From: a virus
Virus record (IMG/VR): IMGVR_UViG_3300011113_000476
Span: 1 to 57,569 of that record
DNA length: 57,569 bases
Strand: one strand, 5' to 3'
Shown: piece by piece, positions 27,343-53,766 of the stretch
Layout of the letters: the number at the start of each line of letters is the position of its first letter
Position numbering within the stretch: the first letter of the stretch is position 1
Notes under the pieces: generated by a model
Seen by the model: only the letters and a program-made list of their open reading frames with translations
Told to the model about the DNA's origin: nothing
Databases searched by the model: none
Made by a program: the position numbers and the translations under genes

Positions 27343-27657
27343 ATGACTCAAATCGAAGAAATTGCAATTCAAGTTAAACAAGCCACTGATTTTCAATCAA
27401 ATAAACGCACACTTAGAGAACGAATTTTAACCGATCTACACTTGCCTTACAATAACGGTCTGTTTAAAATTACACCAGAGTTGTTGGCATTTGCAGCCAC
27501 TTGGCCCAATGATAAATTTTATCTTGAAGATGTATATCAAAATCCAATTGAAATCGACCGGCAGACATTTTTGGTAAAAGCTCAACAACATTATCACAGT
27601 GTAATGAATGAATGGCATCAACAACATGACGAACTTAAAAAAATCCGCAAAGTCTAA
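27343..27657 (+). CDS. Conserved phage protein of unknown function (104 residues)
   Basis: A small soluble protein, first gene after the hairpin. Conserved-looking stretches are DLHLPYNNGLFKITPELLAF, WPNDKFYLEDVYQNPIEID and HYHSVMNEWHQQHDE with a basic end (LKKIRKV). I recall similar unnamed proteins in marine T4-like phages. No domain recognised; the C-terminal third is probably helical. The ATG (27343) comes seven bases after the hairpin and has no clear Shine-Dalgarno sequence. Its last 32 bases overlap the start of the next gene, so the two are probably translationally coupled. Confidence 0.6.
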   Translation: MTQIEEIAIQVKQATDFQSNKRTLRERILTDLHLPYNNGLFKITPELLAFAATWPNDKFYLEDVYQNPIEIDRQTFLVKAQQHYHSVMNEWHQQHDELKKIRKV

Positions 27658-28447
27658 CGGTGTCGTATTATTTGCATTTAATACTAAAAATGTTGACTAT
27701 GTAAAATTAGCAGATAGATCTAGTCGATTAATTGAAAAATATCTAAATCTACCAATTACTTTAGTCACGGATGAAGATTCTAATCCAAAATTTAATTACG
27801 ATAAAATTATAAGATATAACGCTCAAACAGGAAATGTCCGTTACGATTTAAATTTTCAATTACAGGAATGGAAAAACTTCGATAGATATTCTGTATATCA
27901 ATTAAGTCCCTATGATACAACATTGCTGATAGATGTTGATTATTTTATTTTCGATCGAAATCTACTAAAACTGTTCGATCAAAATTTCGATTTTCGGTTA
28001 ATGTATCAAATGCAAACGCCTGAACGTATTGATGGCGGGGACATGGCGCCAGCCAGTTTGCCAATGGTATGGGCCACTGTTATGTTGTTCAAAAAAACAA
28101 AACGCAGTGAAATGTTTTTTAATTTAATCGGCAGAATTCAACGTAACTATAATTATTATAGACTATTATTTGGTATCAGAGATACCAATTTTAGAAATGA
28201 TTTTGCGTTTAGTATGGCTAATATTATAATAAATGGATATAGCTTAGTACCTGAAACCAGCATACCTTGGAAGTTAATGACCATCGAACATCGATTAAAA
28301 GAAATTTACAGCAAAGATAATTTTTTTGTTGTACGTACAGAAAATCGCTGCGATGTAGTATCTCGGCAAAGTTTACATATCATGGATAAGAATTACATTC
28401 TGTCAGATGAGTTCGGTCAATTAATTGATAAGGTATGTCATGAATAA
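27626..28447 (+). CDS. Glycosyltransferase-like protein with DVD motif
   Basis: A 273-residue protein read from ATG 27626, which overlaps the previous gene; a GTAATGAATG further upstream gives a six-residue longer option. The N-terminus (NGVVLFAFNTKNVDYVKLA) and the strand-ending LLIDVDYFIFD (D103 and D105) resemble GT-A nucleotide-sugar transferases, where D-x-D binds the metal and sugar nucleotide. It is homologous in its first half to the next gene product. No signal peptide or membrane segment, so a cytoplasmic enzyme is likely. Donor and acceptor sugars are unknown. I base the assignment on the DxD context, not on a full family match. Confidence 0.5.
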   Translation: MTNLKKSAKSNGVVLFAFNTKNVDYVKLADRSSRLIEKYLNLPITLVTDEDSNPKFNYDKIIRYNAQTGNVRYDLNFQLQEWKNFDRYSVYQLSPYDTTLLIDVDYFIFDRNLLKLFDQNFDFRLMYQMQTPERIDGGDMAPASLPMVWATVMLFKKTKRSEMFFNLIGRIQRNYNYYRLLFGIRDTNFRNDFAFSMANIIINGYSLVPETSIPWKLMTIEHRLKEIYSKDNFFVVRTENRCDVVSRQSLHIMDKNYILSDEFGQLIDKVCHE

Positions 28448-29282
28448 ATCGGGTATCGGGTTTTTAACATTTGCACAAAATACTGACAATGTAGACTATC
28501 TTAAATTGGCATATGTTCAGGCATTGAATGTAAAATCTCTACATCCAACTTTTGGATATGCAGTAGTAGTTGATTCTAAGACTGCAAAATCAGTCACAGA
28601 ACAACATAAAAAAGTATTCGATTATGTTGTTGAATTAAGTGAGGAGCAAAGTGCAGCACCTGTGTTTGCCAACGAATACCGTGCATTTCGATTAAGTCCG
28701 TTCAAGGAAACAATTAAACTAGAAAGTGATTTATTGTTTACTCGAAATATTGAGCATTGGTTACCAGCATTCAGACTAAAAAATATTGTGTTAAGCCATG
28801 GCTGCAAAAACTATAAACAATATCCTGGTACATCGAGGCTGCATAGAAAATTTTTCGACGACAATTTACTGCCCGATGTATATAACGGATTGATGTACTT
28901 TAGGCATAGTGTAGAAGCACAACAATTCTTTCACCTGGCAGAAAATATTTTAACCAACTGGGAATATTTAAAAAATAATGTTCTTAAAAATTGTAGAGAA
29001 GACAGTCCTAGCACAGATGTATTGTATGCAATAACTGCTCAAGTTTATGGCATAGAAAACTGCACTATACCTACCATGGATTTTATAAATTTTGTTCATA
29101 TGAAATCGCATATGCAAAATTGGTCAGACCATAGACTATGGACTGACATTGTAAACAATAATTTTGACGAAGGTATGATAAGAATTAATAATTTGAATCA
29201 GTATCACCCCGTTCATTACTATGATAAAAAATTTATTACAGATGAGGTAGTTGATTATTATGAGCAAACATATAGATCCTGA
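28440..29282 (+). CDS. Glycosyltransferase-like paralogue with altered acidic motif
   Basis: A 280-residue protein from ATG 28440, eight bases inside the previous gene. Its start (GIGFLTFAQNTDNVDYLKLA) parallels the previous protein, and FRLSPFKETIKLESDLLF aligns with YQLSPYDTTLLIDVDYFIF there; the metal-binding DVD becomes E95-S-D97. The middle has LPDVYNGLMYFRHS, as in family-8-like transferases (a conserved Asn-Gly before the active site), and later PTMDFINFVHMKSHMQNW. It could be an active enzyme with an unusual acid pair or a partner subunit of the upstream enzyme. Overlapping genes suggest matched expression. Confidence 0.45.
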   Translation: MNKSGIGFLTFAQNTDNVDYLKLAYVQALNVKSLHPTFGYAVVVDSKTAKSVTEQHKKVFDYVVELSEEQSAAPVFANEYRAFRLSPFKETIKLESDLLFTRNIEHWLPAFRLKNIVLSHGCKNYKQYPGTSRLHRKFFDDNLLPDVYNGLMYFRHSVEAQQFFHLAENILTNWEYLKNNVLKNCREDSPSTDVLYAITAQVYGIENCTIPTMDFINFVHMKSHMQNWSDHRLWTDIVNNNFDEGMIRINNLNQYHPVHYYDKKFITDEVVDYYEQTYRS

Positions 29283-29631
29283 ATTATTAAAAGCGTTTCA
29301 AGAATTAATTAAACCTGTTCCTAACATTGAAGTTGAATACAGGGCATACCATAATGACAAAGGCGAAATCATCAGTGTATGTTCTGAACCCAAAGACAAT
29401 CCAATGGCAGAAAACAGCATTGTTATAAATGCAGAAGTTTATGAAAAATCTCATAAGTTTCTCGTCATTAACAAAGAAATTGTGGCCAAATTTTCAGAAG
29501 ATTTGGGAGTAAGACCAGATTTGATTAAAAGTAAAACAGGATTTAAAGTAGTAAAAAATAATCCTGCTTTGTTAGTTGAAAACGAAGAAAATTACACAAA
29601 TATAGAATACTATGAGTACAGAAATAATTGA
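29260..29631 (+). CDS. Small unknown protein (123 residues)
   Basis: The ATG at 29260 overlaps the end of the previous gene by 23 bases; a TTG nine bases earlier (29251) is a weaker start. The sequence begins MSKHIDPELLKAFQELIKP and has NIEVEYRAYHNDKGEIISVC, then EVYEKSHKFLVINKEIV. It is acidic and soluble, with no motif I recognise. The end overlaps the next gene by 20 bases. Position inside a run of transferase-like genes suggests an accessory role, but nothing in the sequence states which. Confidence 0.5.
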   Translation: MSKHIDPELLKAFQELIKPVPNIEVEYRAYHNDKGEIISVCSEPKDNPMAENSIVINAEVYEKSHKFLVINKEIVAKFSEDLGVRPDLIKSKTGFKVVKNNPALLVENEENYTNIEYYEYRNN

Positions 29632-30538
29632 TATTGCAGATCTCGATTGTATATTTTTAACCTACGACGAACCGAAAAAAGAAGAATTTTGGATTAAGAT
29701 TCAAAATTTAATTCCATGGGTGAAACGTGTAGATGGTGTTAAAGGCAGCGATGCTGCACATAAAGCCGCCGCCGCGGCCAGCGATACTGATAGGTTTGTA
29801 CTTATAGACGGAGATAACATACCAGACGCTGAATTTTTCAATCTTCAGCTTAAACTTGACCACCATAATCATGACTGTGTATTCAGATGGAAAGCTCGTA
29901 ATCATATCAATGGTTTGATGTACGGCAACGGTGGGATAAGTTGTTGGACTAAAGAATTCGTTAACAATATGCGAACACATGAGGCCACCGACGGCAGAGA
30001 TGAAACTGTAATAGAGTTTTGTTTTGACCCCAAGTATATCCCCATGCATGATTGTTATAGTACTACTTTTCCTAATGCAACACCTTTCCAAGCTTGGCGA
30101 GCTGGGTTCCGAGAAGGTGTTAAGATGTGTTTAGATCGCGGAAAGAAACCCAGCTTACAAGAATTCGAACAAAAAGTTCATGCTCGTAATTACGATCATC
30201 TATGTATTTGGCAAAGTGTTGGTCGAGATGTAGAAAATGGTCGATGGGCTATATACGGCGCTCGATTGGGTACGTATATGACTATGTTGAGAGAATGGGA
30301 CTATAAACAAGTACAAGATTTTGATCACCTTGCATACCTTTGGAACAGTTTTGGCAAAGACGACGAATCTGCCTGTGAAAATATTGGACAAACATTGCGT
30401 ACACGATTGGGATTGTCAATCATTGACATGGACGCAGATCAAAGTGCATTTTTTAAGCATCATTATAAAGCAGTGCATCGCAATATGGGAACAACAATGA
30501 CTGAATTAGATGTTATTCGACGAGTAGAAGGTTGGTAA
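29612..30538 (+). CDS. DxD protein related to the C-terminal part of the 45243-46913 product
   Basis: A 308-residue protein with an N-terminal strand (LDCIFLTYDEP) and RFVLIDGDNIPD (D66-G-D68), a layout typical of GT-A sugar-nucleotide enzymes. RWKARNHINGLMYGNGG and PFQAWRAGFREGVKMCLDRGK follow, then NGRWAIYGARLGTYM. The same blocks recur in the last 240 residues of the protein encoded at 45243-46913 (FHARNPVNGLVYGHQAM, WTTWRTAFREVVKLKHF, FGEWSICGAQDAI). I have no family name; a glycosyltransferase or sugar-nucleotide-binding role is an inference. ATG 29612 overlaps the upstream gene by 20 bases; the next gene begins after one base. Confidence 0.5.
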   Translation: MSTEIIDIADLDCIFLTYDEPKKEEFWIKIQNLIPWVKRVDGVKGSDAAHKAAAAASDTDRFVLIDGDNIPDAEFFNLQLKLDHHNHDCVFRWKARNHINGLMYGNGGISCWTKEFVNNMRTHEATDGRDETVIEFCFDPKYIPMHDCYSTTFPNATPFQAWRAGFREGVKMCLDRGKKPSLQEFEQKVHARNYDHLCIWQSVGRDVENGRWAIYGARLGTYMTMLREWDYKQVQDFDHLAYLWNSFGKDDESACENIGQTLRTRLGLSIIDMDADQSAFFKHHYKAVHRNMGTTMTELDVIRRVEGW

Positions 30539-30539
30539 T

Positions 30540-31100
30540 ATGAAACTATATGTAGATGGGTGTAGTTTTTTTTATGGTCATTGTTTAGATAGAAACTATG
30601 CATTAGGTTCATTGTTATCTGCAACGGTTGATAAGTCTGGGCCGGGGAAAAGTAACATTTCGATGCTAGAAGATTTATATAAAAATATTAACGATTACGA
30701 TACATTTATAATTGGGTTTACATTTTCCCTTAGGTACTCATTTAACTACTTAGGTAAAAGGCTTTGCATACATCCTAATAAAAAAATTCCTAATTTAGGC
30801 GATCACTCGGGGGCGTCCATTGATGAAGATCTTTTTAAAAAACTAGTAGACTTATATTACTATTTTTCTGACTTAACAGTATTAGACTTGCGATCGGACA
30901 TATATATAGATTCTGCTATAAGATTACTAGAACAACATAATAAAAAATTTATAATTGCAAGTTGGGAACCTCGCAATATAAAACATAAAAATTTATTTTA
31001 TCCTAGAAAAATGTTGTCTGCAGATATGCTACTGCCGGATGCACATTTAAATGAAAAAGGTATGACATGGTTAGCAAATAAAATCAAGGAAATGATGTGA
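30540..31100 (+). CDS. SGNH-hydrolase-like protein
   Basis: A 186-residue protein starting MKLYVDGCSFFYGH. The G-C-S-F turn after a first strand is the block-I serine position in phage SGNH/GDSL proteins (S9). Near the C-terminus LPDAHLNEKG (D167, H169, N171) sits where block V with the catalytic Asp and His is expected, although the spacing is D-x-H instead of the usual D-x-x-H. The middle (YDTFIIGFTFSLRY) corresponds to a block with substrate-contact residues. It may be an esterase or deacetylase acting on a glycan or acyl group, or an inactive relative. A second SGNH protein is at 50046-50693. It overlaps the next gene by four bases (GTGA). Confidence 0.5.
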   Translation: MKLYVDGCSFFYGHCLDRNYALGSLLSATVDKSGPGKSNISMLEDLYKNINDYDTFIIGFTFSLRYSFNYLGKRLCIHPNKKIPNLGDHSGASIDEDLFKKLVDLYYYFSDLTVLDLRSDIYIDSAIRLLEQHNKKFIIASWEPRNIKHKNLFYPRKMLSADMLLPDAHLNEKGMTWLANKIKEMM

Positions 31101-32485
31101 AAAGTGTATTTTTAACTAGTGCAGAAGATGCAAAAGAAAAATTAGGGCCGGCGATGTGCTTGGCTAAATGGAAACAAGTCAGTCTGCATTTGCCCACAGG
31201 TCTTAATAACAGTTGTTATCATCCGCCCTTACACAAAATTGACTCAACGCTATTAAAAGATAATCCCAGCGCATTGCATAATACTCTTTATAAAAAAGAA
31301 CAGCGCAAAATTATGTTACGTAACGAACGTCCACAGGAATGTAGCTATTGTTGGACACAAGAAGATTTGGGAAATTTAAGCGATAGACATTACCGCAGTG
31401 GCGAACCCTGGGCAGCAAAAGATTTTGAAACAATATCTAATTCGACCGGAGATGAAGATGCAGTGCCTTCTTATGTAGAAGTTAATTTTAATAATGCTTG
31501 CAACCTAGCTTGTAGTTATTGTAGTCCTCAATATTCCAGCAGTTGGGCCAGTGACATAGAACGTAATGGCGCCTTCCCTACTAATCCGCCGCACAATGAT
31601 CCCAATCATTTTATGGGAGATAGAAAAGTTATACCTGCAAGGGAAGATAATCCTTATGTTGATGCTTTTTGGTCTTGGTGGCCGAAATTATACTCCGAGT
31701 TAGAACATTTTAGAATGACAGGTGGCGAACCGTTAATGGATAAAAATACATATCGTGTGTTCGATTATGTATTAGAAAATCCTAGCCCCAAATTACATTT
31801 AAACGTAACTTCTAATTTCAGCGTTGAGTCTGCATTGTTTGACAAGTATTTGGATTATGTAAAAAGACTTTGTGACAATGAAAATAAAAAAATCGAGCAT
31901 TTCATGCAGTATGTCAGTATAGATGCCACTTTCATGCAGGCTGAATATATCAGACATGGATTAAACTTTGAAAGATTTTGGAACAATATCAACAGATTTT
32001 TATATGAAGTTCCTAATCGTAGTAGTTTGACGTTCATAATTACTATGAATAACTTAAATGTGATGGGACTTCAAAATTTATTAGGCTGTATACTTGGACT
32101 TAGGCAAATACACAGTAAAACATATCAACGTGTTTGGTTTGATACTCCGATTCTTCGCAAACCAGAATGGCAAAGTTTGCAACTATTACCTGAAAGCTAT
32201 GTCGATCAGCTGGAGACATCTTGGAGTTTCATGATTACAAAAATGGAACAGCCCGAAACTCCATTTCACGGATTCAAAGACTACGAAGTTCAGCGGTTAC
32301 AACGAGTAATCGATTGGATGAGAGAAGGTAGCAAGTTGGATCCTGAATATGTTAAAATGCAAAAAGCAAATTTTTATAAATTTTTTAATGAACATGATCG
32401 ACGTCGGGGGACTAATTTTATTTTGGCATTTCCTGAAATGGTAGAATTTTGGAAGGAATGCAAATTCTATGCAAAAACTGCCTGA
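31097..32485 (+). CDS. Radical SAM enzyme 1 with N-terminal twitch/SPASM-like module
   Basis: A 462-residue enzyme read from GTG 31097 (GTGA overlap with the previous gene). The CxxxCxxC [4Fe-4S]/SAM motif is C135-C139-C142 (NACNLACSYCSP), and the SAM-binding GGEP is at 209-212 (RMTGGEPLM). Ahead of it is a Cys-rich module: C21 in MCLAKW, C40 in NSCYHPP, C82 and C85 in ECSYCW. This resembles a SPASM/twitch auxiliary-cluster region placed before instead of after the radical domain. In this copy only one Cys stands at the central position, followed by YHP, instead of the CC seen in others. Generic chemistry: 5'-deoxyadenosyl radical formation; substrate unknown. First of six paralogues. Confidence 0.85.
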   Translation: MKSVFLTSAEDAKEKLGPAMCLAKWKQVSLHLPTGLNNSCYHPPLHKIDSTLLKDNPSALHNTLYKKEQRKIMLRNERPQECSYCWTQEDLGNLSDRHYRSGEPWAAKDFETISNSTGDEDAVPSYVEVNFNNACNLACSYCSPQYSSSWASDIERNGAFPTNPPHNDPNHFMGDRKVIPAREDNPYVDAFWSWWPKLYSELEHFRMTGGEPLMDKNTYRVFDYVLENPSPKLHLNVTSNFSVESALFDKYLDYVKRLCDNENKKIEHFMQYVSIDATFMQAEYIRHGLNFERFWNNINRFLYEVPNRSSLTFIITMNNLNVMGLQNLLGCILGLRQIHSKTYQRVWFDTPILRKPEWQSLQLLPESYVDQLETSWSFMITKMEQPETPFHGFKDYEVQRLQRVIDWMREGSKLDPEYVKMQKANFYKFFNEHDRRRGTNFILAFPEMVEFWKECKFYAKTA

Positions 32486-33614
32486 TACCTTCTGTCCAGC
32501 TAAATGGGACGAGCTAATCATTAATACTAGTTATAATTATGTGTATGGTTGCTGTAAAGCAAGACCGGAAAAATTTATCAACGACTATAATGAAATAATC
32601 GATTATCAAAAACAAAATTTATTAAACAACGTACAAGATCCCAGTTGTTCGTACTGTTGGAATTCTGAGAAAACAAACGGTACCAGTCTTAGAACTCAAT
32701 TATTAAAGAAATTCGAAGTATCGAAATTCGATGAATATAAAAATAATAAATCGCCTAAAGTAATTGAAATTAATGTTGGCAATGCTTGCAATATGCAATG
32801 CATGTATTGTAATCCAAAGTTTAGCAGTCAATGGGAAAAAGATATACAAAATCAAAAATATCAATTGTTTACAGATAGACATGTCTACAGTGTAGATATT
32901 AAAAATAAGCAATTAGTAGATGAAAATTTAGAATTGTTAACCACTCTGAAATTTGAAACTCTGAGAATAATAGGCGGCGAACCATTAATAAATAAAAATT
33001 TTTTTAGTATCTTAGATACAATAGAACATAAAGGAATTTTAGATGTAACTTCAAATTTAATGGTCGATAAAAAATCAATAGATAAACTACTATCTAATAA
33101 AAATAAATTCAAATATATTATAATAAATGTCAGTTTAGATGCTTGCAAGGAAATATCAGAATTTGTTAGGTATGGTCTCGATTATGATTTATTTTTGAAA
33201 AATTTAGACTATCTATTAGAACGCAGTGAAGAAAATATCAAAATTAATATATTGAGTTTGATGACTAATTTAACTCTCTGCGATATTGAACACTTTTCAT
33301 CTAGTGTAATACTGCCCAGAATAGAAAAATATAAAGATAAATTTCATTGGGCATTGTCGTATGGTCAAAATCCCAGAATTCAAAGCATTGAAGCAACTCC
33401 GGATAACATTAAAAAACAAGCAGAGACTGTGTTATTAACTTTGTTAGATAATAAAAATATAAAGAATGTTGACATTGTGTTAAGTATATTGTCTTCAACC
33501 AAATTTAATAAAACTTTATTTTCAGAATTTTTACACTTTTTAAAACAATGGGAAGATAGAAAAAACATAACTCTTCCTAACAAAGTCAAGGATCTTTTAA
33601 ATGCAAAAGATTAA
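32469..33614 (+). CDS. Radical SAM enzyme 2 with N-terminal twitch/SPASM-like module
   Basis: A 381-residue enzyme, the shortest of the six. The N-terminal module has C9 (FCPAKW), C28-C29 (YGCCKARP), and C60/C63 (SCSYCW). The radical SAM motif is C107-C111-C114 (NACNMQCMYCNP), and GGEP is at 169-172 (RIIGGEPLI). The ATG at 32469 overlaps the previous gene by 17 bases. The coding sequence is visibly more AT-rich and Lys/Asn-rich than its radical SAM neighbours, as is the next gene, so the two may have arrived together or diverged faster. The C-terminal part lacks any added Cys cluster. Target unknown. Confidence 0.85.
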   Translation: MQKLPDTFCPAKWDELIINTSYNYVYGCCKARPEKFINDYNEIIDYQKQNLLNNVQDPSCSYCWNSEKTNGTSLRTQLLKKFEVSKFDEYKNNKSPKVIEINVGNACNMQCMYCNPKFSSQWEKDIQNQKYQLFTDRHVYSVDIKNKQLVDENLELLTTLKFETLRIIGGEPLINKNFFSILDTIEHKGILDVTSNLMVDKKSIDKLLSNKNKFKYIIINVSLDACKEISEFVRYGLDYDLFLKNLDYLLERSEENIKINILSLMTNLTLCDIEHFSSSVILPRIEKYKDKFHWALSYGQNPRIQSIEATPDNIKKQAETVLLTLLDNKNIKNVDIVLSILSSTKFNKTLFSEFLHFLKQWEDRKNITLPNKVKDLLNAKD

Positions 33615-34638
33615 AATTAATTCGTTACAAGGAGAAGATGTAAATTTTTTTAGCTGGTATCCTAATAATTTTAATATCATCGAACACGAATCGATTGATG
33701 CCTTACTATCCTCAAATGATATAATCATTTTAACTAAAAATATTTTAAAAAAATACGGCATACCTGATTGTAATAAAATTTTTATATTAAACATATTACA
33801 AGAAGGAACAAATACAGTAATAGATACATTACACCGGTGTAATTGGATAGATCAAAAAACATGGCCGTTTATATTATCTTCGGGGGATTTACCTGATACT
33901 GTGAATCATTTCAATTTGGATATATTTAAATTTATATTAGGAAATACTACCGATATTTTGCATAAACGCGATTCAGAAATTTGTGAAAAAATTTTTGAAA
34001 AAAGAAATAAACCTTTTTTATTTAATTTTTTAAATGGAGTTAGTAGGCCGCACAGATCTTCATTAATTGAAAAATTAAATAAAAAAGATCTATTAGAAAA
34101 AAGCTTGTGGTCAGCTTTATACGATAACAAATTTTTGCCTGATGATTACTGCTTTCAATTTAAAAAAGACACAGTGGTTAACGGAAATTACATTTTTGAT
34201 GACTGGCCTGCAGGGCAACTTTTTTCAAATATATTTGAAGACAGTTACTTCAGTCTTGTCACAGAAACGAACTTTTATCTGCCTTATAGTTTTAGGACAG
34301 AAAAAATTTACAAGCCTATTAAAGTAGGACATCCGTTTATTGCAGTTGCAAATTATGGATTCTATAGAGATTTACACAATCTTGGATTTAAAACTTTTAA
34401 TCATTTAATCGATGAATCCTTTGATCTAATAGATAATAATGATGATAGATTAACTCGAATTTCGGACATAGTTGAAGATTTATGTAAATCTAATTTAGAG
34501 GATTTTTTATCCGCAGCCGAACAAAACTGTCGACACAATAGAGAACTTTTGATGTCGACTAATACTCCCAATGAAGACATTGATGTAGTAAATAAATTTT
34601 TAATAAAATTTGAACAATATGCCAAGAATAAACAATGA
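33601..34638 (+). CDS. Glycosyltransferase-like protein (TEK motif) inside the radical SAM array
   Basis: A 345-residue protein with ATG 33601 overlapping the upstream gene by 14 bases. The C-terminal half has SLVTETNFYLPYSFRTEKIYK (T233-E-K235) followed by PIKVGHPFIAVANYGFYRDL and LGFKTF, then ESFDLI. A T-E-K followed by a P-x-x-x-G-x-P-F/V block is the nucleotide-sugar-binding pattern of GT10- and exostosin-like transferases, and the rest fits a GT-B-like protein. The N-terminal half (FFSWYPNNFNIIEHESID) has no clear motif. It is Lys/Asn-rich and very AT-rich like radical SAM enzyme 2. The sugar and acceptor are unknown. Confidence 0.5.
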   Translation: MQKIKINSLQGEDVNFFSWYPNNFNIIEHESIDALLSSNDIIILTKNILKKYGIPDCNKIFILNILQEGTNTVIDTLHRCNWIDQKTWPFILSSGDLPDTVNHFNLDIFKFILGNTTDILHKRDSEICEKIFEKRNKPFLFNFLNGVSRPHRSSLIEKLNKKDLLEKSLWSALYDNKFLPDDYCFQFKKDTVVNGNYIFDDWPAGQLFSNIFEDSYFSLVTETNFYLPYSFRTEKIYKPIKVGHPFIAVANYGFYRDLHNLGFKTFNHLIDESFDLIDNNDDRLTRISDIVEDLCKSNLEDFLSAAEQNCRHNRELLMSTNTPNEDIDVVNKFLIKFEQYAKNKQ

Positions 34639-35968
34639 AACAGACTTAGATTACAAACGCAGAGTAATCGACATTAAATCAAATTCTTTTTGCGGAGCTA
34701 AGTGGTATAATGCTACTATATGGTTGGGCAGCGGTATGACCACAAGTTGTCACCATCCGTTGCCGCACAAAGTAGAAATTGACGACGTTGAACGAAATCC
34801 CAAGGCATTGCATAATACACAAAAAAAGAAAATGGAGCGCGAACAGATGCAAAAAGGGGAGCGCCCATCTGGTTGCGAATACTGCTGGAAGATTGAGGAC
34901 ATGGGCCGAGATGCAGTCAGCGATCGTGTATACAAAACTGTAATTTACACTGATGAAGACTTGGCATATGCATATAGAACACCTGCCCGAGAAGATTTCA
35001 ATCTTAAAACTCTTGAAATTGCTTTTGACAGAACTTGTCAGTTTGCTTGTAGTTATTGTAACCCTGCTTTTAGTAGCACATGGGTCAACGATATTAAACG
35101 CAACGGACCTTATACTAATCTGGTCAGTGATGGTAGAAATCATTTTACACACACCCATGATAGTTCACAACTTTACAAATTCGGCGAAGCCAATCCATAT
35201 GTCGAAGCATTTCATAAATGGTGGGAAAGTGATCTTCATAAAACACTGGGCGAATTACGCATTACCGGTGGAGAGCCGTTAATGAGTGCAGAAACTTGGA
35301 AATTATTAGATTGGTTTAAAGCAAATAAAGGTCGTAGCAAAACTCGACTTGCCATCAATAGTAATTTAGGATATCAAGTTGATATAGATAGACTAATTGA
35401 CAGTGTGGATGGACTTGAAATAGATTTGTACACTAGCAATGAAAGCGAATATGATCAAGCAGAATATATACGCGATGGGTTGAATTACAATCTATGGTTG
35501 GAAAATGTTATAAAACTTGCAGAAAGTAAAAAGTTTTATAGACTGCATGTGATGTGTACGATCAATGCATTATGTTTAGATACATTGCCTGATTTCTTAG
35601 ATTCGATGGTTAATTTAAAAAAAGATTTTGGCCGAGACTTTCCTAATTTTACATTAAACATTTTACGTTTCCCAAGTTTTCAAAGTCCATTAATATTGCC
35701 AGACGAAATTAAAACAAAATATCGTAATCGATTAATTGATTTTATTGTCCGACACAAAGGGCATAACTATTTACATGAGCATGAAATAAATCATGTATCG
35801 CGTTTAATAGATTATTTGGATGTTGTTAAGACACCCCACAGTGATTCTTTTGAATTACCAAAATTAACAAACGATTTTAAACAATTTTACACACAATACG
35901 ATCAACGCAGAGGCAAAGATTTCTGTAAGACGTTTCCTGCACTAGCAGATTGGTACAATACATTATGA
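34619..35968 (+). CDS. Radical SAM enzyme 3 with N-terminal twitch/SPASM-like module
   Basis: A 449-residue enzyme from ATG 34619, overlapping the previous gene by 20 bases; a TTG at 34610 would add three residues. N-terminal module: C25 (FCGAKW), C44 (SCHHPLPHK), C86 and C89 (GCEYCW). Radical SAM motif: C140-C144-C147 (RTCQFACSYCNP); GGEP at 217-220 (RITGGEPLM). It is most like enzyme 1: both have C-x-HP and an HK, a shared ALHNT stretch, and a final FYxxYDQRRG-type end (FYTQYDQRRGKDF against KFFNEHDRRRGTNF). The two probably result from an internal duplication. The start overlaps by ATGA with the next gene at its end. Confidence 0.85.
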   Translation: MPRINNETDLDYKRRVIDIKSNSFCGAKWYNATIWLGSGMTTSCHHPLPHKVEIDDVERNPKALHNTQKKKMEREQMQKGERPSGCEYCWKIEDMGRDAVSDRVYKTVIYTDEDLAYAYRTPAREDFNLKTLEIAFDRTCQFACSYCNPAFSSTWVNDIKRNGPYTNLVSDGRNHFTHTHDSSQLYKFGEANPYVEAFHKWWESDLHKTLGELRITGGEPLMSAETWKLLDWFKANKGRSKTRLAINSNLGYQVDIDRLIDSVDGLEIDLYTSNESEYDQAEYIRDGLNYNLWLENVIKLAESKKFYRLHVMCTINALCLDTLPDFLDSMVNLKKDFGRDFPNFTLNILRFPSFQSPLILPDEIKTKYRNRLIDFIVRHKGHNYLHEHEINHVSRLIDYLDVVKTPHSDSFELPKLTNDFKQFYTQYDQRRGKDFCKTFPALADWYNTL

Positions 35969-37302
35969 GTGAAGACAAAAAAACTGATAGATTTTATAAA
36001 CGCGGCTACGACTACAATAGTCGAAAACCACTGTTTATAGATTCAGATTCTCTCACAGAAACACAGATTAATAGACTGACAAATAGTAAGTCTTTCTGTA
36101 TGTTACCGTGGGTACATCAACATGCTTATCCAGATGGCAGAGTGTATCCTTGTTGTTTTGCAGAATACTTTCATCCCATTGGTAATCTTAAAAACAACAC
36201 TATGCGAGAAGTTTGGAATCAAGAAGGTTACAAAGAGATTCGACGGTCGATGCTTGAAGACAAACCTGTAAAACAATGTACTAAATGCTATGAACAGGAA
36301 GCCAATGGCTTTTTTAGTATGCGTTACGATGCTAATAGAAGCTACGGACATAATATTGCAGAAGTCGACAAAACTCTGCCAGACGGCACACATCCTGAAT
36401 TTAAAATTAGATATTGGGACGTTAGATTTAGCAATCTCTGCAATTTTCGTTGCAGAACTTGCGGCCCAGTTTTTAGCAGTAACTGGTATAATGATCATGT
36501 TAAATTATTCAACAGAGTGCCAGATGTAAATGGCAAAGATCTGGCCAGAATTGAATATGCTGCTGGCGACGAAGAACATATGATTCGTCAAATGGAAGAA
36601 CATATTCCTTATCTAGAACAAGTTTATTTTGCTGGTGGCGAACCTTTAATTATGAAGGAACACTACTATCTATTAGAAAAACTTATCGAAGCAGGTCGTA
36701 CTGACGTTTGTATTCAATACAATACAAATTTTAGTGAACTAGCGTTTAAAGACAAACATGTATTCGAATACTGGAAACATTTCAGAACTGTGGGAGTAGG
36801 AGCCAGTTTAGATGCCAGTGGGGCCAGAGCAGAATTAATGAGAAAAGGCACAGACTGGAAACAAACAGTTCGCAATCGTGAACGTATGTTAGAAGAGGTA
36901 CCGCATGTAGATTTTTATATTGCATCTACTATTAGTGCTATGAATGTGTTACATATTTTAGATTTTCATAAAGAATGGGTTGATATGGGATTTATTAAGC
37001 CCAAAGATTTTAATGTGAATATTTGTCAAAGTCCCGAATGGTATAGGATTGATTTATTTCCACAAGAATTTAAAGAGCGAGTTATTAAACCCGCGTATGA
37101 ACAACACATTGAATGGTTAGAACCTCGGGACTCATTGAAACGAGCAACGACTGGGTTTAAGAGTGCTATTAATTTTTTAATGGCCACCGATGGTACGCAG
37201 CATTGGAATAAATTTAGACAAGAAATCGAGTTACTAGACAATCTCAGAGGGGAGAATTTTTGGAGTACTTTCCCCGAATTAAATGAATTAAAAAATAAAT
37301 GA
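35965..37302 (+). CDS. Radical SAM enzyme 4 with N-terminal SPASM-like module
   Basis: A 445-residue enzyme from ATG 35965 (ATGA overlap). This copy shows the N-terminal module most clearly: C45 (FCMLPW), a Gly-turn before C63-C64 (DGRVYPCC), then IGNLKNNTMREVWN and an R-S-M-L segment before C105/C108 (QCTKCYEQEANG). That is the classical SPASM/twitch order, here placed ahead of the radical domain. Radical SAM motif: C159-C163-C166 (NLCNFRCRTCGP); GGEP at 224-227 (YFAGGEPLI). The domain after it contains GASLDASGARAELMRKGTDW, the usual late strand motif. Substrate unknown, possibly a peptide or sugar. Confidence 0.9.
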   Translation: MSEDKKTDRFYKRGYDYNSRKPLFIDSDSLTETQINRLTNSKSFCMLPWVHQHAYPDGRVYPCCFAEYFHPIGNLKNNTMREVWNQEGYKEIRRSMLEDKPVKQCTKCYEQEANGFFSMRYDANRSYGHNIAEVDKTLPDGTHPEFKIRYWDVRFSNLCNFRCRTCGPVFSSNWYNDHVKLFNRVPDVNGKDLARIEYAAGDEEHMIRQMEEHIPYLEQVYFAGGEPLIMKEHYYLLEKLIEAGRTDVCIQYNTNFSELAFKDKHVFEYWKHFRTVGVGASLDASGARAELMRKGTDWKQTVRNRERMLEEVPHVDFYIASTISAMNVLHILDFHKEWVDMGFIKPKDFNVNICQSPEWYRIDLFPQEFKERVIKPAYEQHIEWLEPRDSLKRATTGFKSAINFLMATDGTQHWNKFRQEIELLDNLRGENFWSTFPELNELKNK

Positions 37303-38504
37303 CATTACCTAATACTATTTGTATGCTACCTTGGATTAGTATAGAGTCTAGTCCAACAGGAACTTCTAGGCCGTGTTGTTTGGCTAGAGAAGAAATTACA
37401 GGCATCGATTTGCGAATGCATACATTAGAAGATGCATATAAAAGTGACTATATGCAGAATCTACGTAGGCAATTTCGTGCAGGAGAAAAACCTGCAACCT
37501 GTAAACTGTGTTGGGATGAAGAAGCAGCAGGCCGGGACAGTAAACGTATACACAGTCAAGTTAGACTCAAAGAACTGTACCCATTGGTCGATTGGCAAAA
37601 TGATTTACCAGATCAATTATGGTTTATTGATTTAAAACTAGGTAATATTTGCAATTTGAAATGTAGAATATGCGGAAGCTGGAGTAGTAGCAAGTGGGCA
37701 GCAGAAGAATTAGATTATCTCCCACAAGGGTACGATAGAAAAAAACATATTGCATACACTTGGCTTAAGCAAGGCCGATGGCCAGAGGAAAGTCCCGATT
37801 TCTGGAAGAACTTAAAATCATTGCTGCCTAATATTAAGTATTTTGAATTTACTGGGGGTGAACCTTGGTTAATCGAAGAACATTGGGATTTACTACGATA
37901 TGCCGTGACTACAGGCGACAGCAAACACATCGATATTCATTATAATACCAATGCAACTGTGGATGGGTTAGGTATACAAAAATCAGCTTTATGGAATCAT
38001 TTTGGTCGTGTAGACATTGCATTTAGCATCGACAATGTTGGTGCAAGATTTGAATATGAACGATATGGCGCAGATTGGGACAAGGCCAACGAAATAATCG
38101 ATGGCGTTCATTTTGCACGAGCCGTCGACACACCTAATATTACTACTCAACTTTGTTTTACAATTAATATTCAAAACGTCTACTACATAGATGAACTACT
38201 AGCCTGGGCAAGTACTAAAACTTTCGACAGCATTTATTTTAATATGTTACACAGCCCTGATCATATGAGTATTCAACGATTAACTCCTACAGCCAAAGAA
38301 TTAGTTTTGAATAAACTTAAAACAACTTTTTGGAATACAAAGGAACATCACCAAGAAATTGAGAATGTAATTAAATTTATCGAAAACGGTATAGGCAGTG
38401 ACGGACAAGAATTTTTAAACAACATGAAACGGACAGATCAATATCGTAAACAAAATTTTATGGATACGCACCCAGAAATAGCCAAGGCCATGGGTTATGA
38501 TTAA
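37299..38504 (+). CDS. Radical SAM enzyme 5 with N-terminal SPASM-like module
   Basis: A 401-residue enzyme starting at ATG 37299 (ATGA overlap with enzyme 4). N-terminal module: C8 (ICMLPW), C26-C27 (SRPCCLAREE), C68 and C71 (TCKLCWDEEAAGRD). Radical SAM motif: C118-C122-C125 (NICNLKCRICGS); GGEP at 186-189 (EFTGGEPWL). The late-strand motif reads AFSIDNVGARFEYERYGADW. It ends with MDTHPEIAKAMGYD, and the last codons overlap the next start by eight bases. It groups with enzymes 4 and 6 by the double Cys. No extra domain is visible. Confidence 0.9.
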   Translation: MTLPNTICMLPWISIESSPTGTSRPCCLAREEITGIDLRMHTLEDAYKSDYMQNLRRQFRAGEKPATCKLCWDEEAAGRDSKRIHSQVRLKELYPLVDWQNDLPDQLWFIDLKLGNICNLKCRICGSWSSSKWAAEELDYLPQGYDRKKHIAYTWLKQGRWPEESPDFWKNLKSLLPNIKYFEFTGGEPWLIEEHWDLLRYAVTTGDSKHIDIHYNTNATVDGLGIQKSALWNHFGRVDIAFSIDNVGARFEYERYGADWDKANEIIDGVHFARAVDTPNITTQLCFTINIQNVYYIDELLAWASTKTFDSIYFNMLHSPDHMSIQRLTPTAKELVLNKLKTTFWNTKEHHQEIENVIKFIENGIGSDGQEFLNNMKRTDQYRKQNFMDTHPEIAKAMGYD

Positions 38505-39795
38505 ACCTGATACGCTTTGTATGGCTCCGTGGACGCACACATACTTAAGTCCACAAACGGAAAGACGTATGTGCTGTGCAAGTCGAGAACCAGCACAAAA
38601 TTTTCAACAATACATAGACACAAAATCTGGTACAGGAAAATATATACCGATCACGCTGGATGATCATTGGAACGGGGAGCACATGCGGTCCGTGCGCTTA
38701 CGTATGATGCGTGGAGAAACTCTGCCAGAGTGCGAAGTATGTAATGACAAATTGCTGAACACCAGCGTTTACCGTAGTTATTTTAATCAATTATTTGGTC
38801 ATAAGTACAATGAAGCGATGGAGAAAACTCGCTATGATGGTTCAACGGATATGAAGCCTGTGAGCTGGGATTACAGATTTAGTAATCTTTGCAATTTCAA
38901 ATGTCGCATGTGCGGAGACATGTTAAGCAGTGCGTGGGAAAGTGAGCAACGACAACACAACATGATCAATTGGTCGGATTCAAAAAATAATTGGATGCGA
39001 CTCGAAGTCAAAAAACAAATTGAACAGTTTCAAGACACACAAATTGAGGCAGAGTTTAATCAAGCCGTCGAAGAGCACAGAGTTGAAGAAGTGTATTGGG
39101 TGGGCGGAGAGCCTCTCATGTATGAGCAACATTGGAGATACATGCAGAGGATAATAGAATTAGGAGACGGCCCAAATGTTTATGCTAGATATAATACAAA
39201 CTTATCAAGAATTAATTATAAAGGTATCAATCTTTATAATGATATTCTCAGCAGGCTTCGTGATTGGCAGATTTGTGCAAGTATCGACGGAACAGGCCCG
39301 ATTGGCGAATATATTAGAACAGGCCTTGACTACAATGCATGGCTTGAAAACTTCCGTCAAGGAGTTGCAATTACTAGTCACAGACGTCAAATGCGAATTG
39401 ACTTTACGCTCACTCTGCCCGGCATGTTCGAAATTATTAATATCCAGCGACTTGCAGAAGAAGAAAAAGTCGATATTCTCGCGAAAGTAATTTTTAGTTT
39501 TAGTCCAGACATAGTTATGTCACCTTTAGCACTACCTAGATTTATCTTAGATCCTTGGGTAGATGAAACAATAGGCCGTTTGCCGAGTGGTAGCAACCCG
39601 TTAAAGGATATCTTAGTCCAGCTAAAAACTAGACCCACTTTCGAAGAACAATGGCCCACCGACTATCGAGTTGGTTTGCGTAAAGGAAAAGCAAGAATCG
39701 AAAGACTTGAACAAATTCGAAATGATAGTTATACTATGAGAAATATACTGTCGGCAAAACCCAAAGTATTAGAATGGTGGGATTCAATTGAATAA
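38497..39795 (+). CDS. Radical SAM enzyme 6 with N-terminal SPASM-like module
   Basis: A 432-residue enzyme from ATG 38497. N-terminal module: C8 (LCMAPW), C26-C27 (RRMCCASRE), C79/C82 (ECEVCNDK), separated by a longer insert with HWNGEHMRSVRLRM. Radical SAM motif: C132-C136-C139 (NLCNFKCRMCGD); GGEP at 203-206 (YWVGGEPLM). The late strand reads ICASIDGTGPIGEYIRTGLDY. It is the last of the array and overlaps the start of the 366-residue gene by eight bases, so the two are probably translated together. Same generic chemistry as the other five; the target cannot be read from sequence. Confidence 0.9.
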   Translation: MIKPDTLCMAPWTHTYLSPQTERRMCCASREPAQNFQQYIDTKSGTGKYIPITLDDHWNGEHMRSVRLRMMRGETLPECEVCNDKLLNTSVYRSYFNQLFGHKYNEAMEKTRYDGSTDMKPVSWDYRFSNLCNFKCRMCGDMLSSAWESEQRQHNMINWSDSKNNWMRLEVKKQIEQFQDTQIEAEFNQAVEEHRVEEVYWVGGEPLMYEQHWRYMQRIIELGDGPNVYARYNTNLSRINYKGINLYNDILSRLRDWQICASIDGTGPIGEYIRTGLDYNAWLENFRQGVAITSHRRQMRIDFTLTLPGMFEIINIQRLAEEEKVDILAKVIFSFSPDIVMSPLALPRFILDPWVDETIGRLPSGSNPLKDILVQLKTRPTFEEQWPTDYRVGLRKGKARIERLEQIRNDSYTMRNILSAKPKVLEWWDSIE

Positions 39796-40888
39796 AGTAA
39801 TTGTAACATTGCGTAATCCGTTAGAAAAAACAAAAACATTAGATTATATTATTGATGTTTACGATCACCCAATGGCACAACGATGGTTTGATGCTCTTAA
39901 AGAGATACTGAATCAAAATAGATACTTAGAAAAAAATTTTTGTTTTTTAGGCTTTCCTGACAGTCAACGCGATTTAAACTATATTTGCCAAGAATTGTGT
40001 TGGGCTAAAAACGAAATTAATAATTTTTTTCGTGGTGAGTACGAGATAGAAGAAGATTACTTCCCCGATACTCTACGTGATCTTAAAACATTAAATCCTA
40101 ATCAAGATTTAATGAACAAATTGCATAATCATTTCGAGATTTTGCAAGGAACTGTGTGGGGACTCAGTGATTATTATAAACGAGCAAATTATATAACTAA
40201 ATTTGCTATCAGACAATTGAATAATTTATGTCACGAAGCAGAGAGTTTAATGCTGAGTCAACGTAAACAGGCAACATTGCCTGAGTGGGTTAGGCCTAGT
40301 CAAATCACTACATTTCTAAATGCCTCGCGATACGAATTTCCGTCAACATATAAAACTAATTTTAAAGAATCCAGGTATGATAGAAAATTCGGGGAAGTCT
40401 ACTTACATTGGACACAGATTGGCAAAACACTGTTTGAAGTTTATAGAGATGAAAAAGGAGTCGACATCGACAAGGTAACCTGCGATGCTATTACACATCT
40501 ACGTTACTACAGCGGCGAGTTTGATATCGAATGGGCACAGGACGTATGTTATAATGGGCCTCACCCTTGGTACACCAAAGAAATGTCTGGGTTTAAATCA
40601 TGGCTTGAACGAAATGGATTCGATCCCGAAGATACTCAATATAATTTCGGCTATCATTCAGTGGGTCAAGTTGATCTGCGTAGAAGTTTTGGAACAAGCA
40701 AATACAGTGAAGTTTGGCCTATGCTGTCAAGACACTTAGACATATATTCAATCCAATGTGATGACGGGTCAGGAAATATTTTACGCTCTGTCTATTCTTA
40801 TACTTGGTCGGACAAAGACTACTATGATCAACAAATCGAAAGATTAAAACCTGGTTACGATTACAGCAGTAGTTTACTCAATAAATAA
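39788..40888 (+). CDS. Unknown protein following the radical SAM array (366 residues)
   Basis: Read from TTG 39788, which overlaps the stop of radical SAM enzyme 6; the first in-frame Met lies about 29 residues later, after a conserved-looking start (IVTLRNPLEKTKTLDYII), so the TTG is favoured. Recognisable stretches are LEKNFCFLGFPDSQRDLNYI, FEILQGTVWGLSDYY and YDRKFGEVYLHWTQIGKTLFE. The protein is rich in Tyr, Trp and His, with no signal peptide and no domain I can name. Its fixed place directly after six radical SAM genes makes it a candidate partner, substrate carrier or downstream enzyme. Confidence 0.6.
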   Translation: MNKVIVTLRNPLEKTKTLDYIIDVYDHPMAQRWFDALKEILNQNRYLEKNFCFLGFPDSQRDLNYICQELCWAKNEINNFFRGEYEIEEDYFPDTLRDLKTLNPNQDLMNKLHNHFEILQGTVWGLSDYYKRANYITKFAIRQLNNLCHEAESLMLSQRKQATLPEWVRPSQITTFLNASRYEFPSTYKTNFKESRYDRKFGEVYLHWTQIGKTLFEVYRDEKGVDIDKVTCDAITHLRYYSGEFDIEWAQDVCYNGPHPWYTKEMSGFKSWLERNGFDPEDTQYNFGYHSVGQVDLRRSFGTSKYSEVWPMLSRHLDIYSIQCDDGSGNILRSVYSYTWSDKDYYDQQIERLKPGYDYSSSLLNK

Positions 40889-40892: not shown

Positions 40893-40994
40893 ATGAAATG
40901 GCTTAAAAATTTATACTACAGAATTAAATTAGAAATCACTTATCGTCGCAAACTCAAAGAATTGCGAAAGCGAGATCCTTTTATCTATAAATGA
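40893..40994 (+). CDS. Small basic protein ending DPFIYK (33 residues)
   Basis: An ATG at 40893 opens a 33-codon frame, MKWLKNLYYRIKLEITYRRK..., ending KRDPFIYK at TGA 40992-40994. The stop overlaps the carbamoyltransferase ATG (ATGA), the same coupling used by neighbouring genes. The sequence is very basic and amphipathic, with alternating aromatic and Lys/Arg residues. I recall small marine-phage proteins with a similar DPFIYK end. It could bind nucleic acid or membrane; function unknown. It fills what would otherwise be an unexplained 100-base gap. Confidence 0.6.
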   Translation: MKWLKNLYYRIKLEITYRRKLKELRKRDPFIYK

Positions 40995-42472
40995 ATATTC
41001 TGGGAATATCTGCAGGATTTCATGATGCTGCATTAAGTGTCATTGACTATCATGGAAATATATTATATGCGGGTCACAGTGAACGCTATAGTAAAATTAA
41101 AAATGATCCAAATTTAAGTCCTGGTATAATTAAAGAAATAGTTAATTATAGAATTGACCATGTTGCTTACTATGAACGACCATGGAATAAACAGTTAAGA
41201 CAACTATACAGCGGCCAAGGCATCGAATGGAATAAACTTACAGCTCGACAAATTCTTACCAAGCAAATAGGCAAAGAATTTTCTAAATTCCCAGGTCTAA
41301 TTTCAACGCACAACCATCATCTATGCCACGCGGCTGCAGGGTTTCAGACAAGCCCATTTGACAAAGCCACGGTGGTTGTAATCGACGCCATTGGGGAATG
41401 GGACACAATAAGTATTTGGGCAGCAGAATACGTTCAAGGAAAAGCCGTTTATAAAAGATTATGGCGCCAAAAATATCCGCATAGTATAGGATTGTTTTAC
41501 AGTGCAATGACAGAACGGGTTGGACTTAAACCCAATGAAGAAGAATATATTCTTATGGGTATGGCAGCATATGGTGCACCTGCGTTCACTGATTTATTTA
41601 AATCCAAATTTTTACACAATGAGTGGGACATTAAATTTAAAGAAAATCTTCACGCCGGCATAGAACAAACGTATTTGTCCTATGTTGGGGATATGGATAT
41701 TGCGGCCAGCGCACAAGACTTAACAGAAGAATTGGTATTAAATATAATGCGTCGCGCAAAAGATTTTAATTGGAGCAACAATTTAGTCTATATGGGCGGT
41801 GTTGCTCTTAATTGTAGTATTAATCGTAGATTAGGGGAATACTTTGAAGATATTTGGATTATGCCTAATCCTGGTGATGCTGGGTCTAGTCTTGGCGCCG
41901 CTGCACTTGCTTATCGCGACAGGATTAATTGGCGCAATGCTTATTTGGGTCACAATATCCCTGGTGCTTACCCTGTTAATGCTGCCCTGGATGCTCTTTT
42001 GCATGGTGGTATTGTTGGTGTGGCTAGTGGCCGAGCCGAGTTCGGACCGAGGGCACTAGGCAATAGAAGCTTATTAGCAGATCCCCGGGGCCCTGATATA
42101 AAGAATCGAGTAAATGAAATCAAACGTAGACAAAAATTCAGACCCTTTGCGCCAGTTATTTTGGAGGAATTGGCTGATAATTATTTCGATATCCCTCGCA
42201 ACTGGAATAACAGTAGGTATATGCAAGTCGTCGGTCAGTGCAGGAATCCTGACTTATTTCCTGCTATTGTGCATCATGACGGAACTAGTCGTATTCAGAC
42301 TGTGCCCAAGGACGGATCGGGAATCAGAGAACTCTTAGAAAAATGGTTTATTGTCACAGGCTGCCCTATGCTATTAAATACTAGTCTAAACATTCGAGGT
42401 GAGCCCATGGTCAATGACCGCAGGGACGCTGATAGATTCGAACAATTATATGGGGTAAAAGTATTGTCGTGA
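40991..42472 (+). CDS. Carbamoyltransferase (NodU/CmcH/TobZ family)
   Basis: A 493-residue enzyme that uses carbamoyl phosphate and ATP to make O-carbamoyl groups on sugars or natural products. The N-terminal Kae1-like domain starts MNILGISAGFHDAALSVI and has HNHHLCHAAAGF (metal-binding His pair) and VVVIDAIGEWDT; MGGVALNCSINRRL and NPGDAGSSLGAAALAY follow. The C-terminal YrdC-like domain has ASGRAEFGPRALGNRSLLAD, then KRRQKFRPFAPVIL and LLNTSLNIRGEPMV. All the catalytic landmarks are present. It is somewhat shorter than bacterial members (about 550-600). Neighbours suggest that a sugar in a phage-made glycan is the substrate. It overlaps genes on both sides by ATGA/GTGA. Confidence 0.9.
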   Translation: MNILGISAGFHDAALSVIDYHGNILYAGHSERYSKIKNDPNLSPGIIKEIVNYRIDHVAYYERPWNKQLRQLYSGQGIEWNKLTARQILTKQIGKEFSKFPGLISTHNHHLCHAAAGFQTSPFDKATVVVIDAIGEWDTISIWAAEYVQGKAVYKRLWRQKYPHSIGLFYSAMTERVGLKPNEEEYILMGMAAYGAPAFTDLFKSKFLHNEWDIKFKENLHAGIEQTYLSYVGDMDIAASAQDLTEELVLNIMRRAKDFNWSNNLVYMGGVALNCSINRRLGEYFEDIWIMPNPGDAGSSLGAAALAYRDRINWRNAYLGHNIPGAYPVNAALDALLHGGIVGVASGRAEFGPRALGNRSLLADPRGPDIKNRVNEIKRRQKFRPFAPVILEELADNYFDIPRNWNNSRYMQVVGQCRNPDLFPAIVHHDGTSRIQTVPKDGSGIRELLEKWFIVTGCPMLLNTSLNIRGEPMVNDRRDADRFEQLYGVKVLS

Positions 42473-44789: not shown

Positions 44790-45250
44790 AGGAAAAATTA
44801 ATTCAAGCATACATGCAAACTGCAAAAATATTTGCTGAACTCAGTCATGCTCGGCGTCTGCATGTGGGTGCAATAGTGGTTAAAGATGATAGAATTATCA
44901 GTATTGGTTACAACGGCATGCCTGCTGGATGGGATAATAACTGTGAACACGAAGATATGGGATTCTCAGATGCTGTATTCGGAGAACCACAAACTGTAAT
45001 TAATAGAGGATTAAAAACACGACCTGAAGTTCTCCACGCAGAATCGAATGCCATTAGTAAACTAGCACGAAGTAGTGAAAGCGGAGACGGGGCAACGATG
45101 TTTATTACTCATGCTCCTTGTATGGAGTGTTCTAAACTGATTTATCAAAGCGGAATAAAAAAAGTTTATTTTGGGCAAGCTTATCGTGATACTTCCGGTG
45201 TTGAATTTTTAAACAAGTGTAAAATTACAGTAGAACAAATCGATGTTTGA
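44786..45250 (+). CDS. dCMP deaminase
   Basis: A 154-residue zinc-dependent deaminase read from ATG 44786 (ATGA overlap); a TTG at 44774 would only add four residues. The catalytic H84-A-E86 (EVLHAESNAI) and the Cys pair C112/C115 (APCMECSKLI) bind zinc. The early ARRLHVGAIVVKDDRII and YNGMPAGWDNNCE are typical of T4-like dCMP deaminases, which convert dCMP to dUMP for thymidylate synthesis. That links it with the thymidylate synthase and dihydrofolate reductase on the other strand. It is odd that it lies inside the modification cassette and not with these partners. Confidence 0.92.
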   Translation: MKEKLIQAYMQTAKIFAELSHARRLHVGAIVVKDDRIISIGYNGMPAGWDNNCEHEDMGFSDAVFGEPQTVINRGLKTRPEVLHAESNAISKLARSSESGDGATMFITHAPCMECSKLIYQSGIKKVYFGQAYRDTSGVEFLNKCKITVEQIDV

Positions 45251-51595: not shown

Positions 51596-51601
51596 GCATT
51601 A

Positions 51602-52694: not shown

Positions 52695-52710
52695 GCTGTT
52701 GTTTCTCCAA

Positions 52711-52769: not shown

Positions 52770-52778
52770 AGTGACTTT

Positions 52779-53757: not shown

Positions 53758-53766
53758 AATAAATCC

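Follow-up and report, generated by a model that had tools for sequence, protein, structure and literature searches.

A five-gene core of N-twitch radical SAM enzymes held in fixed order among related phages

IMGVR_UViG_3300011113_000476 is an IMG/VR virus record of 57,569 bases, classed as linear, and its full length is the window analyzed here. On its plus strand lie six open reading frames (ORFs) for radical S-adenosylmethionine (rSAM) enzymes, named A to F (Table 1). Long ORFs are mainly plus-stranded from 24 kb to 47.8 kb and run from tail genes through gt1, gt2, s29, gt3 and a 186-aa ORF to rSAM A–F with u33, followed by u39, a carbamoyltransferase and a kinase-like protein. Throughout positions 31097–40888 consecutive ORFs overlap by 4–29 bases with starts as listed; C and D could each begin at a later ATG, in which case the overlaps that involve them would be shorter. 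A preliminary description had presented the six enzymes as a tandem row, but the row is not strictly tandem, as the 345-aa u33, without a family match, sits between B and C.

All six rSAM ORFs carry CxxxCxxC followed by GGEP. Each also has a cysteine module, C-x2-K/P-W and CxxC, upstream of CxxxCxxC, unlike classical SPASM and twitch enzymes, in which the auxiliary domain is C-terminal to the barrel. CxxxCxxC occurs in none of the 25 stop-to-stop frames of at least 200 aa in the rest of the window. The NCBIfam profile NF033640 (N_Twi_rSAM) covers all six proteins nearly full length at 193.5–410.6 bits against a cut-off of 170, which excludes chance and bears out the motifs and module placement first described. 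Control genomes match NF033640 at E 0.001 in 14 of 14 cases and above its cut-off in none; counts made at that loose threshold therefore take in rSAM proteins of other kinds. Pfam SPASM matches the front of D (residues 50–114, E 8.5e-14), and E and F fall just under the Pfam cut-off. A recent local duplication of one gene was considered and rejected, because the paralogues share only 20–33% identity with A and their clades include bacterial members.

The profile NF033640 itself starts with the cysteine module, so the module-first arrangement is a curated family trait and no peculiarity of this phage. The idea that this architecture is new is rejected on that ground, and PMC5332604, in its accessible part, already reports 12 rSAM genes in one phage.

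The model of D, the only one of the six to be folded, has a mean predicted local distance difference test score (pLDDT) of 93.9 and matches rSAM barrels with Z up to 12.3, root-mean-square deviation (rmsd) 3.7 and 220 aligned residues. The matches include BlsE (Z 12.3), DesII (12.0), CteB (11.8), SkfB (11.7), anSME (11.5) and MoaA (11.3), at rmsd 3.6–4.2 over 211–234 residues. All six Z-scores lie within 1.0 of one another, so the fold cannot decide between a sugar and a peptide enzyme.

The module itself resembles a single known structure. A profile of the module only, built from 32 sequences, retrieves from the PDB at E <0.1 just two chains of BtrN (E 0.0058 and 0.0059), and a full-length profile finds the same match at E 3.6e-5. 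In the profile alignment, with BtrN residue numbers counted by hand, the four module cysteines align with C169, C187, C232 and C235 of the C-terminal twitch of BtrN, which we take to be its auxiliary cluster ligands. In the D model two short strands separate C50 from C68, and a helix (residues 92–102) comes ahead of C110 and C113. This fits the account of the twitch in the accessible parts of PMC6231123 and PMC9012708, where it is a shortened form of the SPASM domain that holds a single auxiliary cluster; in BtrN four cysteines serve as its ligands.

Conservation of the module cysteines in homologues had been set beforehand as a check, and the N-terminal cysteines proved invariant within orthologue groups. 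Among rows that have letters at these positions, all four are retained in 63/63 for A, 10/10 for B, 68/68 to 70/70 for C, 73/73 for D, 70/70 for E and 65/65 for F. These counts leave out 34 divergent rSAM copies, many of them in a separate alignment (A6) in which C50, C68 and C113 are invariant and C110 is kept in at least 90%. B, D, E and F have one further adjacent module cysteine. Outside the module and the rSAM motif each orthologue group has at most one invariant cysteine: C455 in A (63/63), C322 in C (71/71), C286 in E (70/70) and C260 in F (65/65). The seven-cysteine SPASM motif (AuxI plus AuxII) does not occur in the module, which has four or five conserved cysteines. A strict twitch motif (cysteine, 9–16 residues, glycine, four residues, cysteine) is found in four of the six ORFs because B and F lack the glycine while keeping the cysteines. 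The module, likened at first to a SPASM domain, is thus better predicted from these alignments to be a relocated, BtrN-like twitch for one cluster.

The set recurs across related phages. A D-based IMG/VR scan returned 76 stretches, every one a relative, spread over 72 loci (52–93% identity). Each of the 72 records has 4–16 matches to NF033640 at E 0.001, of which one or more exceed the cut-off. Best-hit ORFs are present for C, D and E in all 72 loci, F in 67, A in 66, u39 in 65, gt3 in 60, the carbamoyltransferase in 58, gt1 and gt2 in 56 each, s29 in 55 and B in 10. Wherever a locus extends far enough on either side to show it, in 48 of 48 cases, the orthologues keep the order A-C-D-E-F-u39 and the strand. 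That count took plus-strand ORFs at least 50% identical to A, C, D, E or F (at least 30% for u39), excluded the 24 of 72 loci without room and kept near-identical records in; it ignored 28 weaker rSAM copies (<50% identity) in 24 of the 72 loci. The intervening genes vary among the 48 loci, whereas the orthologue order does not. D matches three of 50,697 phage records.

A six-enzyme unit was rejected, as B has orthologues in just 9 of 72 loci. The conserved core is five enzymes (A, C, D, E and F), and B is accessory. The preliminary suggestion of several cooperating enzymes instead of a single modification is supported by the gene-neighborhood survey, which finds the five clades kept together, in order, in near phages. 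On three more distant phage-like contigs (L080, L082 and L083) the order is A-C-D-F-E.

These three contigs, with L081 and L133, are filed in bacterial metagenome-assembled genomes (Betaproteobacteria, Verrucomicrobia, Pelagibacter, Rickettsiales, Rhodobacteraceae); their phage tail-type and rSAM genes make all five look like wrongly binned phage contigs. Two loci, L069 and L077, have a single 1019-aa open frame with two successive N-twitch rSAM matches, and its row also holds a short weak match containing a stop. Two N-twitch enzymes seem to have become naturally fused in this frame.

Substitution patterns were compared with near relatives, up to seven per gene where found and four for B, with saturated synonymous rates (dS) set aside. 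Nonsynonymous rates (dN) for the six enzymes are 0.02–0.15 (up to 0.235 for D) against dS of 0.27–3.81; for the tail-fibre or adhesin protein, dN is 0.16–0.60. Two rows stem from distant paralogues, a second D row in L073 (dN 0.765) and a u33 row in L051 (0.859). From these rates all six rSAM genes look like maintained enzymes under purifying selection.

Relatives also occur in bacteria. A scan of GTDB contigs gave 246 stretches, of which 188 are relatives, and 78 loci were kept. One Bacteriovoracaceae contig, L087, carries eight N-twitch rSAM genes in 12 kb, flanked at one end by ORFs interpreted as ObgE and the ribosomal proteins L21 and L27 and at the other by one interpreted as Lgt. In a bootstrapped 60-row tree its genes fall into the phage clades with support of 100/99 for A, 100/100 for C (two copies), 95/92 for D, 100/98 for E and 100/100 for F; a 124-row tree gives a similar clade picture. 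B forms its own clade on a long branch. The presence of all these clade members together in L087 makes the five clades look older than the phages. In the order of this bacterium, that of UBA6144, NF033640 is matched above its cut-off in 31 of 57 genomes, with at most 28 matches per genome at E 0.001. A Pfam tally covering 121 of 165 listed bacterial neighbors, cut by hand for size, has as its largest classes Radical_SAM (8), TPR_19 (6), PhyH, TPR_12 and GDSL lipase (5 each) and GT2 (4). In L241–L245 an N-twitch rSAM gene stands beside other rSAM types, one of them weakly STM4011-like (41 bits, cut-off 200); these are mixed radical clusters within the UBA6144-containing order.

The partner u39 is closely tied to F. 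When loci are anchored on u39, F lies directly upstream in 78 of 80, and one small ORF intervenes in the other two; by contig name, 19 of the 80 contigs are already in the D-anchored set. At least 529 stretches encode u39 relatives among the 600 matches listed. u39 has no Pfam, NCBIfam or PHROGs match, and Foldseek against the PDB gives nothing at E <0.001. Its model (pLDDT 89.5) has a best VIA match of Z 8.5 (rmsd 3.5, 133 aligned), and titles naming cyclophilins or prolyl isomerases make up most of the 50 rows listed (Z 8.5–7.3, rmsd 3.2–4.2, 129–149 aligned). The model carries a large insert, and its cyclophilin likeness may reflect no more than a common arrangement. Neither u39 nor gt3 has a match among the 50,697 phage records, and u39 is found in one of nine bacterial genomes, on a different contig from that genome's rSAM genes. 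u33 likewise has no Pfam, NCBIfam or PHROGs match, and its family profile has no PDB match; the only matches are weak and single-member. Relatives of u33 longer than 250 aa number 71 in 49 of the 72 loci, mostly in the slots E–F (24) and gt3–A (22), with 7 in A–C.

Several neighbors point toward glycan chemistry. The carbamoyltransferase has both Pfam domains above the gathering score (PF02543 at 141.8 bits, PF16861 at 160.4 bits), and carbamoyltransferase-like ORFs of 29–34% identity occur in five bacterial stretches (L098, L101, L110, L112 and L114). gt1 has no credible Pfam match and no PDB relative. gt3 has no Pfam match, and a PDB search gave five weak rows of unrelated kinds; its DGDN motif is presumably of glycosyltransferase type. 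Homologues of gt3 adjoin an N-twitch rSAM gene, or lie one gene away, in three of six bacterial loci (L242, L243 and L245). Vibrio phage K566 has two GT8 genes above cut-off and one GT4-like gene below it among four N-twitch-type genes, two above the NF033640 cut-off and two below. No credible alignment was found between gt2 and a K566 GT8 protein.

Two further ORFs lie downstream. The product of 43086–43880, present in 47 of 72 loci, joins an APS-kinase-like front and a nucleotidyltransferase-like back in one protein, which perhaps activates a sugar or similar. The second half of 45243–46913, present in 27 of 72 loci, is gt3-like by eye.

Table 1. Features of the window, with coordinates, strand and the matches on which each description rests
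Feature	Position	Strand	Description	Match or occurrence
Giant ORF	9827-23848		Single ORF, 4673 aa, between baseplate and tail-fibre genes	
Tail protein	26348-27280		Tail-fibre or adhesin protein	
gt1	27608..28447	+	Putative GT-A-like protein	hhalign to gt2: prob 98.4, E 5.7e-15
gt2	28425..29282	+	Weakly glycogenin/GT8-like	Glycogenin-1 chains, best E 0.0076
s29	29251..29631	+	Small conserved ORF	In 55/72 loci, 26-38% identity to window copy
gt3	29612..30538	+	Conserved protein with DGDN motif, putative glycosyltransferase	In 60/72 loci
rSAM A	31097..32485	+	462 aa, predicted N-terminal twitch, core	NF033640, 320.1 bits
rSAM B	32469..33614	+	381 aa, accessory	NF033640, 193.5 bits
u33	33601..34638	+	345-aa ORF between B and C	
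rSAM C	34610..35968	+	452 aa, core, start uncertain	NF033640, 294.1 bits
rSAM D	35950..37302	+	450 aa, core, start uncertain	NF033640, 410.6 bits
rSAM E	37299..38504	+	401 aa, core	NF033640, 338.5 bits
rSAM F	38497..39795	+	432 aa, core	NF033640, 288.3 bits
u39	39788..40888	+	366 aa, conserved partner, weakly cyclophilin-like model	
Carbamoyltransferase	40991..42472	+	NodU/TobZ-type O-carbamoyltransferase	Pfam Carbam_trans_N 4.8e-41, _C 4e-47
Block after strand switch	47767-57100	-	DegT aminotransferase, NDP-sugar epimerase-like, thymidylate synthase, DHFR, DUF2201/VWA metallopeptidase-like	

The baseplate genes of the window match phage families. Among the 20 of 82 records listed, homologues of its wedge protein from large phages, Salicola phage SCTP-2 and Agrobacterium phage Atu_ph07 among them, are 32–35% identical to it. 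Records related to the window reach 374 kb. The window is probably a piece of the larger genome of a T4-like myophage. Promoter and terminator scans of this DNA do no better than chance, and neither an Rfam scan nor a tRNA scan of it yields a match.

The five-enzyme N-twitch core, here joined by B, may together with u39 form one multi-step tailoring pathway that acts on a surface glycan or a glycosylated tail part, a proposal we hold tentatively and rate a shade below an even chance. That the set is constant in near phages and turns up again in L087 speaks for a single pathway. We infer cluster binding, chemistry, step order and substrate as follows. A substrate would be built by the neighboring putative glycosyltransferases and finished by the O-carbamoyltransferase. 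Each enzyme would cleave SAM at its CxxxCxxC cluster and abstract hydrogen from its own position on that substrate. The electron could then pass to the N-terminal auxiliary cluster for a net oxidation, as proposed for BtrN; alternatively, the radical might be quenched by a conserved cysteine, for which the extra invariant residues of A, C, E and F are candidates. In a version worded for any biopolymer, which seems possible at odds distinctly short of even, the five enzymes might act sequentially on one virion or host-surface glycan or glycoprotein, with u39 as a dedicated phage partner and the enzyme set common to phages and predatory-lineage bacteria.

Several observations weigh against a shared glycan pathway. 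Either D or u39 served to select the phage loci. Among distant relatives E and F can swap, and the full set is not universal: phage-like L133, which shares gt3 and the types of tail gene, has one A-like and three D-like genes and lacks C, E and F. A single N-twitch rSAM gene is present in 57 of the 78 bacterial loci. All five clades occur only in L087 among these loci, besides phage-like L080, L082 and L083, and L149, L086 and L104 have partial sets. L087 has no recognized glycosyltransferase among its rSAM genes, where a 320-aa ORF lacks an NCBIfam or PDB match. The nearest sugar gene there, a nucleotide-sugar pyrophosphorylase-like ORF (E 9.8e-13), is about 4 kb away behind the rplU-, rpmA- and obgE-like ORFs. 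The bacterial neighbors tallied show no clear pathway theme, with Glycos_transf_2 in only 4 of 121. Many SPASM and twitch enzymes act on peptides. The Z-scores of the D model fail to tell the sugar enzymes BlsE and DesII apart from the peptide enzymes CteB, SkfB and anSME.

The absence of a recognized glycosyltransferase from the L087 set would also suit an alternative in which a protein or peptide is the target of the five enzymes, which would introduce radical cross-links, epimers or oxidations into the tail-fibre or adhesin protein or into s29 or s27. This would be a maturation of virion parts resembling that of ribosomally synthesized and post-translationally modified peptides. Such substrates are frequent for SPASM and twitch enzymes, among them two of the four enzymes treated in the accessible part of PMC9012708 and SkfB in that of PMC6231123. 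In the stretches fetched, tail-fibre ORFs lie upstream of the cassette in 45 of 72 loci, and s29 and s27, also upstream, are small and conserved. However, the overlapping genes of 31097–40888 leave no room between them for a precursor, s27 and s29 further upstream being the candidates left (no search aimed at precursor or leader-binding families was made), s29 has only a C-terminal tyrosine cluster and no cysteine-rich core, and the carbamoyltransferase among the neighbors is of sugar type. We consider protein maturation rather unlikely and a surface glycan or glycosylated tail part the more likely substrate.

That there is no single pathway, with paralogues acting independently on different substrates and synteny reflecting a stable block behind the tail fibres, strikes us as improbable. 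The 4–16 NF033640 matches per record, the extra copies below 50% identity, the single copy in most bacterial loci and the other combination in L133 would all suit it. Yet the five clades stand together in one bacterial genome, and the orthologue order is identical in 48 of 48 loci despite the varying genes in between. Least probable by far is a small-molecule product, such as a modified nucleotide or signal, that blocks host defense or rivals in the manner of viperin. Viperins are among the structural matches, the window has nucleotide-metabolism genes elsewhere, and the viperin model NF038283 matches the barrel in five of six enzymes (none listed for C); these matches reach only 15.4–34.4 bits against a cut-off of 180. 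Viperins also lack an auxiliary cluster, and to our knowledge no five-step small-molecule pathway of this kind has been described in phages.

The NF033640 record shows no named function, yet the family is multi-copy in these phages and in the order of UBA6144. The five-gene block offers a tractable way into it, with a complete set in one short stretch, a named partner gene and, in four of five core enzymes, an invariant extra cysteine of its own to test. Should its product turn out to be a surface glycan or a modification of the tail, phages would be exploiting oxygen-sensitive radical reactions to reshape the features recognized by hosts or rival phages.

Rows of rSAM genes have already been reported from phages. 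The accessible text of PMC5332604 reports 12 rSAM genes in the T4-like marine phage TARA_ERS488813_N000010 and in that portion does not state their order, family or function. Pelagimyophages carry rSAM cassettes in a host-recognition cluster with tail-fibre and glycosyltransferase genes; the part of PMC7029224 consulted has no gene-level description of them and reports a freshwater group without rSAM genes. Enrichment of rSAM genes is noted for Tasman Sea phages (PMC7150976, in part). Viral 'ahbD' calls from the Baltic Sea are doubted in the accessible part of PMC9301287; among 261 calls, only three contigs have both SPASM and radical SAM domains, and some such calls may be misnamed N-twitch enzymes. 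A description of the ordered set, u39 or a function was not found in the literature searched, which mostly excluded subscription papers and preprints and was accessible in part.

Among characterized enzymes, anSME, CteB and SkfB share the barrel fold of the D model (Z 11.5–11.8) and the Pfam SPASM likeness seen at the front of D, E and F; the phage enzymes differ in being module-first, in having one predicted cluster site and in that no precursor peptide was found. BtrN, the 2-deoxy-scyllo-inosamine dehydrogenase, has one auxiliary cluster site with the same four-cysteine pattern as the site predicted here. Its twitch is C-terminal in chains of 269–270 residues, whereas the phage enzymes are module-first and 381–462 residues long. 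NF033640 is the closest known system, with all six enzymes as members and the module at the profile start; its description names no function and does not cover the five genes in their fixed order with u39. The enzymes thus belong to a known family and make up a real, conserved and apparently functional system, of which the multi-enzyme cassette and its bacterial counterpart are the finding.

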